Notes: generated from the sequence alone by a model not told the origin. DNA of 64,000 nt from Haloplanus vescus (GCF_900107665.1 NZ_FNQT01000002.1:312286-376285), one strand, 5' to 3'. Counted from the stretch's first letter, positions 41,950 through 64,000 are shown. Numbers and translations: made by a program.

Positions 41950-43434
41950 TTACGACCCGACTTCACGGCCCGGGACGGAGATTTCGACGACGCTCCCCGA
42001 CGACTCGTCGGTCGAGATAGAGAAGCGCCCCCCCGCCTTGGTGATGACCCAGTAAATCATCCAGAGGCCGAGCCGTTCGGCGTGTTCGAGGGGCGTCTCC
42101 CCGCCTTTCAGCACCGTGATTTCGTGTTCGGGGATGCCCGGACCGTTGTCCTCGATTTCGATGTCTATCCACCCGTCGTCGCGTTTCTCCATCCAGACGC
42201 TCACCCGCGGAGTCGGCGCATCGTTGTGCTTGATGCCGTTCTCGATGGCCTCTTCGAGTGCGGCCACGATGCCCGGCGCCTGCACCAGACACGCCTCGTC
42301 GGGTAGCGTCGTCGTGATTTCCGCGTCGGGATAGTGGTCGCCGAGCATGTCGACGATGCGGAGGATGTCCTCGGTCAGGTCGATGCCCGTCGGCGACGAC
42401 CCGTCGAGCGAGATGATGCGCTCGATTTCCTGAACCGACTCCGCCAGCCCCATCAGGTTGATAGCCGCCTCCGTGACGATGTCGAGTGACTCCGGTTCGT
42501 CGCCGTCGGCGAACTCGTCGCGGAGTAATTCCACATGGCCCTCGATGACGTTCATCTTGTTTTTCAGGTTGTGACTGAGGACGCGATTCAACACGTCCAG
42601 TCGTCGTTCCTTGAGTTTCCGGTCGGTAATCTCCGTCTGGAAGCCGACGAAATTCGTCACGTCGCCGCCCTCGTCGTGGACCGGAGAAACGTCGATGTTC
42701 TGCCAGATTCGCTCGCCGGTCTTGCGGTAGTTCACGATGTCGACGGACACTGGCTCTGCGGCGTCGATGTGCTCTCTGAGGACCCGCCGCGTCTCGGGGT
42801 CGGTGTCTTCGCCCTGCAGGAAGCGACAGTTGCGGCCGAACGCCTCCGTGCGGTCGTAGCCGGTGATATCTTCGAAGCGTTCGTTCGCGTAGACGATGGG
42901 GTTGTCATCCTGACTGGGGTCCGTGATGACGATGCCTATCGTCGCTTCCTCCATCGCTCGCTCTTTCAAGCGGAGGTCCGCCACGACGCGTTCGAGTTCG
43001 CGTGACTGCGCGGCGAGTTCGGCGGCCGTCTGTCGGCGCTCGATCTGATTGTCGAGTCGCGACCTGAGCGCCGCTTTCGCCGTCGGGATTTCGATGACGT
43101 CGTCGACGTACTCCCACACGGACGTGCCGATGGTGTGGGCGTCGTTCGACGGGACCAAGAGGACGAACGGCAGGAAATGCTCCGCGCTCTCGCGCTCCGA
43201 TTCGATGGTGGTCGAAACCCGCGAAAATTCGGTGTGGCCGACCAGACAGCAGTCGAAGTCGGTCTCGAGGTCGGCGACGTCCGTCGTCGTCTCGACGCGG
43301 TACTCGTCCGCCAGCGTCTCGCTCAACAGATCGCGGTTCCGCCCCGACTGCATGAACAGGAGGACGCGGGGCTCCGCGTCGCCCGGCGTGTCGCTGTCGC
43401 CAGCACTCGCCGTCTCGTCGGAGTGATGTGACAT
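41950..43434 (-). CDS. LOV-domain sensor histidine kinase
   Basis: 494 residues. Residues about 22-120 form a receiver-like N-terminal domain without a clear phospho-acceptor aspartate. Residues about 160-275 are a PAS domain of the LOV class: GRNCRFLQG with the adduct cysteine Cys203, and the flavin contacts Asn235 (VNYRK), Asn246 (WQNID) and Gln266 (GFQTEIT). The kinase core has the phosphoacceptor HNLKNKMNVIEGH (His288), N box ENGIKHND, G1 box DNGPGIP (429-435) and a G2-like ERLGLWMIYWVI. All photocycle residues of a blue-light receptor are present. No membrane segment. It is divergent from a KaiC-like gene, with a 130-base control region, and no response regulator lies beside it. Confidence 0.88.
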   Translation of the reverse strand: MSHHSDETASAGDSDTPGDAEPRVLLFMQSGRNRDLLSETLADEYRVETTTDVADLETDFDCCLVGHTEFSRVSTTIESERESAEHFLPFVLLVPSNDAHTIGTSVWEYVDDVIEIPTAKAALRSRLDNQIERRQTAAELAAQSRELERVVADLRLKERAMEEATIGIVITDPSQDDNPIVYANERFEDITGYDRTEAFGRNCRFLQGEDTDPETRRVLREHIDAAEPVSVDIVNYRKTGERIWQNIDVSPVHDEGGDVTNFVGFQTEITDRKLKERRLDVLNRVLSHNLKNKMNVIEGHVELLRDEFADGDEPESLDIVTEAAINLMGLAESVQEIERIISLDGSSPTGIDLTEDILRIVDMLGDHYPDAEITTTLPDEACLVQAPGIVAALEEAIENGIKHNDAPTPRVSVWMEKRDDGWIDIEIEDNGPGIPEHEITVLKGGETPLEHAERLGLWMIYWVITKAGGRFSISTDESSGSVVEISVPGREVGS

Positions 43435-43490
43435 CTGTGGGGGGAAGTGACGGCTTCGTTTCTACCTCCAAGTGGTCCGCATACCTAACT

Positions 43491-43541
43491 GTTATTACCA
43501 AAATAGTAACACGAGTGCGAACGCGGACTGCCCTTTATTAT
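43491..43541 (+). promoter_or_regulatory. Promoter and palindrome between LOV kinase and KaiC-like gene
   Basis: CTTTATTATC at about 43532-43541 is 24-33 bases before the KaiC-like ATG, a strong TATA box for a leaderless transcript. Upstream, 43491-43510 reads GTTATTACC-AAAATAGTAAC, an imperfect palindrome with seven-base arms (GTTAtTA / TAgTAAC), in a stretch much AT-richer than its surroundings; it looks like an operator. The region between it and the kinase start (43435-43490) is GC-rich and shows no clear TATA for the kinase. Confidence 0.5.
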
Positions 43542-43564
43542 CACGGGCGGCCTACGACGAGCTC

Positions 43565-45022
43565 ATGCCCGCATCGTCGACCGAACGCCTCGCGACTGGT
43601 ATTGATGGGTTAGATGACATTCTCCACGGCGGCTACCTCTCCGGCCGGAACTACATGCTCCGTGGGCCGCCGGGGTCCGGAAAGACGATGCTCGGCCTCC
43701 ACTTCTTGCAGGCGGGACTCGATGCGGGCGAGACGGGTCTGTTCATCAACTTCGAGGAGCACCTGTCTGACCTGATAGCCAACGTCGACTCGCTGGGCTT
43801 CGACACCGACCGCATCGACTTCCTCGACCTGAGTCCGACGGCGGACGTCTTCGTCGAGGGTGGGGCCTACGACGTCTTCGAGGCCTCGGAGGTGGAACAG
43901 GAACCGTTCCGCGAGGCAATCGTCGAAGCGGTGACGGATGTCGAACCCGACCGGGTGGTCGTCGACCCGCTGACCCAACTCCGATACCTCTCGTCCGACG
44001 ACTACCAGTTTCGCAAACAGGTGGTCGGCTTCATGCGCTATCTCCGCTCGGCGGGCGCGACCGTCCTCTTCACCGTCCAAGACGCCCAAGCGGACCCGAC
44101 GCGTGACCTCGAATTCATCGCCGACGGGACGATTCGCCTGTCGACGGACGGCAACGCCCGCTCCGTCGCCGTCCCCAAGTTCCGCGGGTCGGGTACGCGA
44201 AGCGGCGACCACGCGTACCGCATCGACGACGACGGCGTCCACGTCTATCCCGAACTCGCGCCGGGCGACCACAGTCGGTCGTTTACGCCGAAGCAGGTGT
44301 CTTCCGGCGTCGACGAAATCGACTCGCTGCTCAACGGAGGCATCGAACAGGGAACCGTCACCGTCATCAGCGGTCCGACTGGCGCGGGCAAGACGACGCT
44401 CGGCACGCAGTTCATGAACGAGGGGGCCGAACGCGGCGAGCGCTCCGTCGTCTACCTGTTCGAGGAGGGTCGCGGGACGTATCTCCGCCGCGCCGAAGCC
44501 ATCGGCATCCCGGTCCGACAGATGCTCGACCGCGGCACGCTGGAAGTCCGAGAGGTCGACGCCCTCGAACGCTCGCCACAGGAGTTCGCGCAGATGGTGC
44601 GGACCGACATCGAGGACAACGACACGCAAATCGTCATGCTCGACGGCATCGCGGGCTACCGACTGACGCTACAGGGCGACTCGGAGACGGTGCTCACCCG
44701 CCTCCACGCCCTCGGCCGCTATCTCAAGAACGTCGGCGTGACCACCATCTTCATCGACGAGACGAAGAACATCACCGGCGAGTTCAACGCGACTCAGGAG
44801 AACATCAGCTACCTCGCCGACAACATCGTCTTCCTGCGCCATCTCGAACTCCACGGCGAGCTACAGAAGGCAATCGGCGTCCTGAAGAAGCGAACCAGCG
44901 ACTTCGAGCGTACGCTCCGACGGTTCGAAATCACCGACGAGGGCATCGTCGTCGGCGACCCCCTCAGGGGGATGCACGGCATCCTCCGCGGGACGCCGGA
45001 ACTGATAGACGACGGGGACTGA
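43565..45022 (+). CDS. Two-domain KaiC-like RecA-superfamily ATPase
   Basis: 485 residues with two KaiC domains. Domain 1: Walker A GPPGSGKT (34-41), FEE (Glu64/65), VVVDPLTQLR. Domain 2: Walker A GPTGAGKT (270-277), FEE (Glu300/301), IVMLDGIAG, then an R-rich tail ending GILRGTPE. The second domain keeps the cyanobacterial phosphosite region: at the place of Thr426-Ser431-Thr432 it has Thr410, Ser415 and Tyr416. The E-E pairs needed for ATP hydrolysis are present in both halves. No KaiA or KaiB gene is nearby. Such KaiC homologues (cirA-D) exist in Haloferax. Divergent pairing with a LOV kinase suggests signalling; it is inference. Confidence 0.88.
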   Translation: MPASSTERLATGIDGLDDILHGGYLSGRNYMLRGPPGSGKTMLGLHFLQAGLDAGETGLFINFEEHLSDLIANVDSLGFDTDRIDFLDLSPTADVFVEGGAYDVFEASEVEQEPFREAIVEAVTDVEPDRVVVDPLTQLRYLSSDDYQFRKQVVGFMRYLRSAGATVLFTVQDAQADPTRDLEFIADGTIRLSTDGNARSVAVPKFRGSGTRSGDHAYRIDDDGVHVYPELAPGDHSRSFTPKQVSSGVDEIDSLLNGGIEQGTVTVISGPTGAGKTTLGTQFMNEGAERGERSVVYLFEEGRGTYLRRAEAIGIPVRQMLDRGTLEVREVDALERSPQEFAQMVRTDIEDNDTQIVMLDGIAGYRLTLQGDSETVLTRLHALGRYLKNVGVTTIFIDETKNITGEFNATQENISYLADNIVFLRHLELHGELQKAIGVLKKRTSDFERTLRRFEITDEGIVVGDPLRGMHGILRGTPELIDDGD

Positions 45023-46958: not shown

Positions 46959-47507
46959 ATGAGTACGCAAGAGTCCGTCCGACAGCAGGCCGGTACCGTC
47001 GAAGCCAGCGAAGCCCTTCGACTCGACCAGGAGAAGACCGAACAGCTCGTCGAGGCGCTCAACACCGACCTCGCCGCGACGTACGTCCTCTACCACCAGC
47101 TGAAAAAGCACCACTGGAACGTCGAGGGTGCGGAGTTCCGTGACCTCCACCTCTTCCTCGGCGACGCCGCCGGAGACGCCGAGGAGGCAGCGGACGAACT
47201 CGCAGAGCGTGCACAGGCGCTCGGCGGCGTCCCCCTCGCCGGCGGCAAAAACCTCGAAGAGAACGCGCCCGTCTCCCCCGAGGGCGACGATGTCTACGAC
47301 ATCCGGACCTCGCTCCGCAACGACATGGAGATGTACGGCGACATCATCGAGACGGTCCGCGACCACGTCGACCTCGCCGAGGGGCTGGGCGACCACGCCA
47401 CCGCGGAGATGCTCCGTGAACAGCTCGTCGAACTCGAAGCGCACGCCCACCACCTCGAGCACTACCTCGAAGACGACACGCTGGTCACCGACGCGTCGAC
47501 GCAGTAA
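46959..47507 (+). CDS. dpsA: DpsA ferritin-like DNA protection protein
   Basis: 182 residues. Dps ferroxidase site residues in the DLAATYVLYHQLKKHHWNVEG stretch and in LHLFLGDAAGDAEEAADELA, and a C-terminal pair of helices ending TLVTDASTQ. It is the halobacterial DpsA, which stores iron and protects DNA under oxidative stress. Upstream, 46787-46958 has no ORF; AT-rich blocks CGTTTCAAAGCG and GTGTTAACTGG are possible promoter or metalloregulator sites, but no consensus operator is certain. Confidence 0.94.
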   Translation: MSTQESVRQQAGTVEASEALRLDQEKTEQLVEALNTDLAATYVLYHQLKKHHWNVEGAEFRDLHLFLGDAAGDAEEAADELAERAQALGGVPLAGGKNLEENAPVSPEGDDVYDIRTSLRNDMEMYGDIIETVRDHVDLAEGLGDHATAEMLREQLVELEAHAHHLEHYLEDDTLVTDASTQ

Positions 47508-63398: not shown

Positions 63399-64000
63399 GT
63401 GTCCGAGCCAGTCCCCATCGGCTGTCCACCGCTCGACGACCTGCTCGGCGGCGGGTTCGAGCGCGGCACCGTCACGCAGGTGTACGGCCCGCCGGCCGCC
63501 GGCAAGACGAATCTCGTGCTCTCGGCGGCAGTCCAGGTCGCCGCCGCCGACGGGACGGCCGTCTTCATCGACACCGAGGGACTCTCTATCGACCGCTTCC
63601 GCCAACTCGCCGAGGCGACCGCCGACGGCGACGACGTGGAGGAACTCACCTCCCGCATCGTCGTCTCGGAGGCTCACGACTTCGAGGAACAGGAGGAGGC
63701 GGTCCGGGACGCCGCGGACCTCGCCCCGCGTGCCGACCTGATCGTCCTCGACAGCGCGACGGGCTTCTACCGACTCGAACGCCACGACGACGACGCGGGC
63801 GAGACGCTCCGGCGCGTGGGCCGGCAGGTGACGCATCTGCTCTCGCTCGCTCGCAAACACGACCTCGCGGCGGTCGTCACGAATCAGGTGTTCACCGACC
63901 CTGACGGCGAGCGGTCGAAGGGCCTCGGCGGCCACACGCTCGACCACTGGACGGGGACGGTGCTCAGACTCGACCGGTTCCGCGGCGGCAACCGTCGAGC
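63399..64000 (+). CDS. radB: RadB recombinase paralogue (3' truncated by window end)
   Basis: Starts at GTG 63399 as VSEPVPIGCPPLDDLLGGGF and is open to the last base (200 codons; full RadB is about 235). Walker A GPPAAGKTNL, TAVFIDTEGLSIDRFRQLAE, Walker B ADLIVLDSATGFYRL, and AVVTNQVFTDPDGE, SKGLGGHTLDHWTGTVLRLDR, the RecA-superfamily L2-like region. It lacks the N-terminal HhH domain of RadA, as RadB does. RadB is an accessory recombination factor, in Haloferax needed for RadA loading. Unlike RadA, its ATPase is weak. Confidence 0.9.
   Translation, partial: MSEPVPIGCPPLDDLLGGGFERGTVTQVYGPPAAGKTNLVLSAAVQVAAADGTAVFIDTEGLSIDRFRQLAEATADGDDVEELTSRIVVSEAHDFEEQEEAVRDAADLAPRADLIVLDSATGFYRLERHDDDAGETLRRVGRQVTHLLSLARKHDLAAVVTNQVFTDPDGERSKGLGGHTLDHWTGTVLRLDRFRGGNRR

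Follow-up and report, generated by a model that had tools for sequence, protein, structure and literature searches.

A CirC-type KaiC and a LOV histidine kinase in Haloplanus vescus: a putative signalling module with a pseudo-receiver as its coupling part

In Haloplanus vescus the gene for a double-domain KaiC ATPase stands head-to-head with that for a LOV histidine kinase, and the kinase begins with a pseudo-receiver domain whose subtype accompanies the double KaiC throughout the family. That KaiC and the kinase are functional partners in some form is, in our judgement, very probable. With moderate confidence, and from sequence comparison, we favour a more specific reading, namely that a CirC-type KaiC switch working without KaiA and KaiB and the LOV kinase form one signalling module coupled through the pseudo-receiver. 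As KaiC always lies beside a matching signalling protein, here one with a LOV domain, light or redox signals probably feed a KaiC switch distinct from the cyanobacterial clock in these haloarchaea. Behind this stands the question of what archaeal KaiC is for: do archaea keep time, or do they merely respond to light? If a partner adjoins essentially every double KaiC in the family, this role becomes testable in genetically tractable haloarchaea, and the module, if true, would show KaiC ring signalling without KaiA and KaiB.

The window analysed here is the whole stretch of 64,000 nucleotides (GCF_900107665.1, NZ_FNQT01000002.1:312286-376285). A preliminary description made from its sequence had placed two head-to-head genes in it, with 130 bases between them, and both placements hold. 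What we observe concerns the gene pair, its conservation, its domain make-up and its catalytic residues, for which the relevant features are:

41950..43434, minus strand: histidine kinase gene with pseudo-receiver, LOV and HisKA-like/HATPase parts (494 aa, read from 43434 to 41950)
42571..42573, minus strand: phospho-acceptor His288, invariant in the alignment
42610..42966, minus strand: LOV domain, residues 157-275 (PDB and NCBIfam matches, alignment)
42826..42828, minus strand: LOV photo-adduct Cys203 in GRNCRFLQG, by alignment
43045..43371, minus strand: N-terminal pseudo-receiver, residues 22-130 (AF2, Foldseek, profile match, alignment)
43435..43564, no strand: divergent intergenic region, 130 bp
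43534..43541, plus strand: TATA-like TTTATTAT, 31 nt upstream of the kaiC start
43565..45022, plus strand: double-domain KaiC (CirC-like) ATPase gene (485 aa)
43664..43687, plus strand: Walker A of CI (GPPGSGKT), conserved
44372..44395, plus strand: Walker A of CII (GPTGAGKT), conserved
44792..44812, plus strand: T410...S415-Y416 phosphosite stretch, by alignment to cyanobacterial KaiC

The extent of the intergenic region depends on the start of kaiC. The best start is the ATG at 43565, where homology to relatives begins; a GTG at 43472 was rejected, as it is only the earliest possible start in that long frame. A palindrome that had been noted in the shared region, TGTTATTACC-AAAATAGTAACA (43490-43511), does not hold up as an operator: an equal or better one occurs in 237 of 300 Markov shuffles, and relatives do not conserve it.

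How constant is the pairing? We examined what surrounds some 180 double-KaiC loci. All 89 double-KaiC genes in the 99 family genomes have this pseudo-receiver subtype encoded no more than 1.5 kb away, in a search whose receiver profile was built from KaiC-adjacent kinases and thus favours finding such neighbours. This is the opposite of the rare adjacency in relatives that the preliminary description had named as its test. At the level of whole genomes the subtype is present in 68/68 with a double KaiC versus 3/31 without one (68 with both, 0 with KaiC only, 3 with the receiver only, 28 with neither; n = 99; Fisher 1.2e-21, a value that treats related genomes as independent), and 20 of the 114 matches to the subtype lie more than 1.5 kb from any double KaiC. 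A kinase match falls within 600 bp of the double KaiC at 97/110 family loci and at 45/60 loci of other haloarchaeal families; at most loci without a near kinase the receiver subtype recurs in a Bat/HTH_10 factor, in a short receiver protein or in a kinase farther away. Across the 148 genomes compared in the family, the KaiC orthologues nearest to the window's stand head-to-head with the LOV kinase in the window's genus, in Halorubrum (g14) and in single other genera. A scan of genome contigs gave 17 loci, few of them haloarchaeal. Against a strict partnership speak three species of the window's genus, L153 (G062), L154 (G090) and L155 (G111), in which the kinase is intact and kaiC is deleted or reduced to C-terminal remnants.

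The shared domain itself, which the preliminary description did not mention, was not recognised by a Pfam search of kinase residues 22-130. AF2 nevertheless models these residues as a receiver fold with a mean pLDDT of 92.6, Foldseek relates them to receivers at a TM of about 0.7-0.8, and a profile search matches them to residues 155-272 of PleD. The full-length kinase model is weak (mean pLDDT 66), its LOV and kinase parts being unusable and only the pseudo-receiver good. Pseudo-receivers are defined as receiver folds missing one or more of five conserved residues (PMC12632262). The domain is without the acidic pair and without the Lys closing strand 5, and Gly66 takes the place of the phospho-Asp, which is Asp in 24/30 sequences of an alignment of the window's kinase with 29 orthologues; it is therefore a pseudo-receiver. 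A profile of the subtype gives the window's kinase 158 bits versus 17.7 for the next match, which leaves it as the sole strong copy in the genome.

The divergent gene encodes a full-length double KaiC with two RecA-like domains, and the earlier reading of both Walker A sites and both Glu-Glu pairs (E64/E65 and E300/E301) is upheld. In a comparison of 175 sequences from archaea, the two Walker Lys never vary, nor do D134 and E301, and E65 is kept in 174/175. Alignment likewise bears out the placement of Thr410 and Ser415 at the clock phosphosites with Tyr416 as the third. The three residues align without gaps to T426, S431 and T432, the phosphosites of cyanobacterial KaiC. Position 410 is T or S in 174/175 archaeal sequences, S415 is found in 170/175 and Y416 in 163/175, so that Tyr at the T432 position is a family trait; in cyanobacteria the Thr at this position is phosphorylated first. 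With 187.9 bits the protein remains far below the 546.25 cut-off of the NCBIfam model for circadian clock KaiC (TIGR02655). KaiB has no match in the window's genome and exceeds the cut-off in 0/99 family genomes, and the short gaps after KaiC, considered as a place for it, contain at bacterial loci a small gene that is a receiver. At two loci, L172 (G100) and L181 / G136 (Halorubrum rubrum), kaiC is present as two overlapping pieces in different frames, which may be due to a frameshift, a pseudogene or an assembly error.

The PAS domain of the kinase (approximately residues 157-275) had been called a LOV domain, and this is what it is: by sequence it matches the Brucella LOV histidine kinase and YtvA best among PDB entries, NCBIfam assigns it to blue-light LOV families, and Cys203 is in place. 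This position is Cys in 28/30 aligned sequences and Phe or Trp in two of the window's genus. Among the flavin contacts named earlier, Asn235 and Gln266 stand and Asn246 falls, as it is the neighbouring Gln245 that aligns with N104 of YtvA, the second flavin Asn; of the 30 sequences 21 have N at this position, 8 have Q and 1 has E. Given that Cys203, Gln207, Asn235 and Gln266 are all present, with Gln245 for the second flavin Asn, the window's LOV domain is likely to be photoactive. In the catalytic core the phospho-acceptor His288 and the N-box Asn399 of the HATPase are invariant (30/30), and HATPase_c exceeds the Pfam cut-off.

When the loci are compared, the constant element is KaiC plus the pseudo-receiver, while sensor and output are exchangeable. 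The outputs seen beside KaiC are a histidine kinase, a Bat-type transcription factor and a stand-alone receiver; the sensor states are LOV, LOV lacking its Cys, PAS and none. A Bat/HTH_10 factor with the pseudo-receiver follows the double KaiC at 12 loci (L085, L086, L087, L091, L101, L103, L104, L106, L205, L207, L208 and L210), assigned by Pfam (GAF and BAT domains) for L101 and L205 and by C-terminal sequence for the other ten. On a KaiC tree built with FastTree, in which many forks are weak, at least 11 changes fall on the LOV state of the partner and only 4 on the gene arrangement. LOV was considered as the reason for the pairing and rejected, because its state changes while the receiver partner stays, and loci without the LOV Cys, or without any LOV domain, still have the pair. 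LOV with its Cys is found in 60/97 KaiC-adjacent kinases of the family versus 6/45 in other families. Across 148 whole genomes there are 321 LOV-Cys codon patterns, or roughly two in each, counted with a strict pattern for which the control gave zero matches (a looser one did match the control). LOV is thus much commoner in KaiC-linked kinases than its rarity predicts, which is an estimate rather than a formal statistic.

Several KaiC-adjacent kinases have Pro, Phe, Trp, His, Leu or Met instead of the LOV Cys. The flavin Asn/Gln residues are kept at L163 (Phe), L155 (Trp) and L173 (His), and also with Pro at L083, L089, L090, L093, L095, L099, L100, L108, L110 and L115. These Cys-less LOV-like partners, mostly with Pro, resemble the natural Cys-to-Pro LOV domain of Halorubrum Bat, a flavin-binding domain that responds to photo-reduction as well as to chemical reduction (PMC4682037).

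Bacterial KaiC relatives with 51-55% identity occur in the cyanobacteria Hyella, Lyngbya and Phormidesmis and in one Anaerolineae MAG (L176, L177, L178, L179), on draft or metagenome contigs for which contamination is possible. There kaiC precedes a gene for a stand-alone receiver (119-124 aa), which in Lyngbya is above the Pfam cut-off for Response_reg, and then one for a receiver-kinase. Lateral transfer of the module is possible.

The scheme that we infer extends to hexamer formation, pseudo-receiver contact, photochemistry, the direction of the signal and its target. The CirC-type double KaiC, presumably a hexameric ATPase, would act, in the absence of KaiA and KaiB, as a switch driven by nucleotides or by phosphorylation and would be coupled to its dedicated histidine kinase via the N-terminal pseudo-receiver. 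The LOV domain ahead of the kinase core would sense blue light or the flavin redox state; together with the state of KaiC it would set the activity of the kinase, which would pass phosphate to unlinked response regulators. The pseudo-receiver is the candidate contact part because it is constant while sensors and outputs vary, and because there is a precedent in the cyanobacterial clock, where the pseudo-receiver of CikA binds KaiB and that of KaiA affects KaiC stimulation (PMC12632262). The light- or redox-gated KaiC switch of the preliminary description had been put forward as inference and keeps that standing. A wider reading, possible but held tentatively, would see here a class of KaiC switches in haloarchaea, and apparently in a few bacteria, that is independent of KaiA and KaiB, with the pseudo-receiver as universal docking part for plug-in sensors and outputs and with blue light led directly to KaiC in this branch. 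Such a docking part would make the sensor (LOV, redox LOV, PAS or none) and the output (histidine kinase or Bat-type factor) interchangeable.

Do the two proteins have to meet at all? The LOV kinase could instead act through an unlinked response regulator on transcription of kaiC, and of its own gene, from the shared region, the proteins never touching. This genetic coupling, which we consider unlikely, would suit head-to-head genes with a compact divergent promoter. A TATA-like box is kept 27-33 nt before kaiC in most head-to-head orthologues, and the Halorubrum intergenic regions (L024-L043) combine one at 31-33 nt upstream of kaiC with a CTAAG element at 26-27 nt from the start of the kinase gene, fixed element-to-start distances that would fit a back-to-back pair of leaderless promoters, which may exclude each other. 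Genetic coupling would also suit the light/dark response of the cir transcripts in Haloferax volcanii (PMC3941300). However, the kinase lies on the same strand downstream of kaiC at 108 loci versus 36 with divergent genes, so the divergent promoter is not a conserved feature, and the receiver subtype is conserved even at loci without a kinase. The retention of the pair despite repeated loss of the LOV Cys counts against our preferred module; together with the behaviour of the Halorubrum Bat LOV (PMC4682037) and with the annotation of the cirC neighbour as the oxygen sensor fixL (PMC3941300), these replacements would fit a LOV domain that is mainly a sensor of flavin redox or oxygen and not of light. 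For the window this is distinctly unlikely, as the Cys is found here and in 28/30 sequences, along with the full GxNCRFLQG motif, Asn235 and Gln266.

A KaiC oscillator of the cyanobacterial circadian type could draw on the double KaiC with conserved T410/S415 and on a kinase partner comparable to the SasA/CikA output; it is very improbable in view of the KaiB count (0/99 family genomes, none found in the window's genome), the Tyr at the T432 position in 163/175 sequences, a kinase without a KaiB-like domain, and KaiA being reported from cyanobacteria only (PMC5520375). That the genes are neighbours by chance or passively through general synteny has a negligible probability. Within the window's genus conservation does extend to the flanking genes, at 75-90% identity, but Halorubrum, G033 and G165 have 0/7 tested flanking genes near and still retain the pair, which thus outlives the loss of all other synteny; with the 89/89 association this explanation is refuted as far as genome comparison reaches.

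Some of these elements are already known: KaiC beside a sensor kinase in H. volcanii, archaeal LOV kinases with receivers, and one photocycling archaeal LOV domain. Of the described cases H. volcanii cirC comes closest; it encodes a double-domain KaiC of 52.7 kDa and adjoins fixL (PMC3941300). Likened by description, the window also has a double KaiC adjoining a PAS sensor kinase; LOV, a pseudo-receiver and conservation of the pair go unmentioned in the accessible portion of that account. Archaeal LOV histidine kinases often carry receiver, GAF or PAS domains (Losi et al. 2014, PMC4844311), and ALovD-1, a slow-cycling LOV domain from a halophilic archaeon, keeps its photocycle up to 3 M salt (PMC12202551). 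The window's kinase shares with them the combination of LOV and histidine kinase and differs in its link to KaiC, its special pseudo-receiver and Gln245 for the usual Asn; KaiC is mentioned in neither of the two papers.

With cyanobacterial KaiC and its partners SasA, CikA and KaiA the window has in common the KaiC architecture, the catalytic residues, a kinase partner and pseudo-receivers (CikA, KaiA); it differs in that no KaiB was found, in a kinase with no KaiB-like domain, in Tyr for T432 and in a LOV sensor. The kinase is not a SasA orthologue, since its N-terminus is a receiver fold and a KaiB-like (thioredoxin) domain is missing. The analogy with SasA-like kinases is loose, given no KaiB-like domain, no KaiB above the cut-off in the family and Tyr for Thr. 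KaiC-like ATPases are said, by Makarova, Galperin and Koonin in 2017 (mBio 8:e01959-17, cited through PMC5847659), to be archaeal signalling hubs with many input and output domains, and the module in the window fits this general proposal. Neither a LOV-KaiC link nor a rule joining KaiC to a pseudo-receiver was found in the literature compared, which did not include that hub paper.

Two other genes of the window deserve mention. A haloarchaeal DpsA (NCBIfam equivalog) lies at 46959-47507 on the plus strand, a few genes from the kinase-kaiC pair, in a neighbourhood conserved almost solely within the window's genus. At 63405-63794, also on the plus strand, a distant KaiC/RadB-like stretch with 34% identity to the second KaiC domain is probably a recombinase relative.
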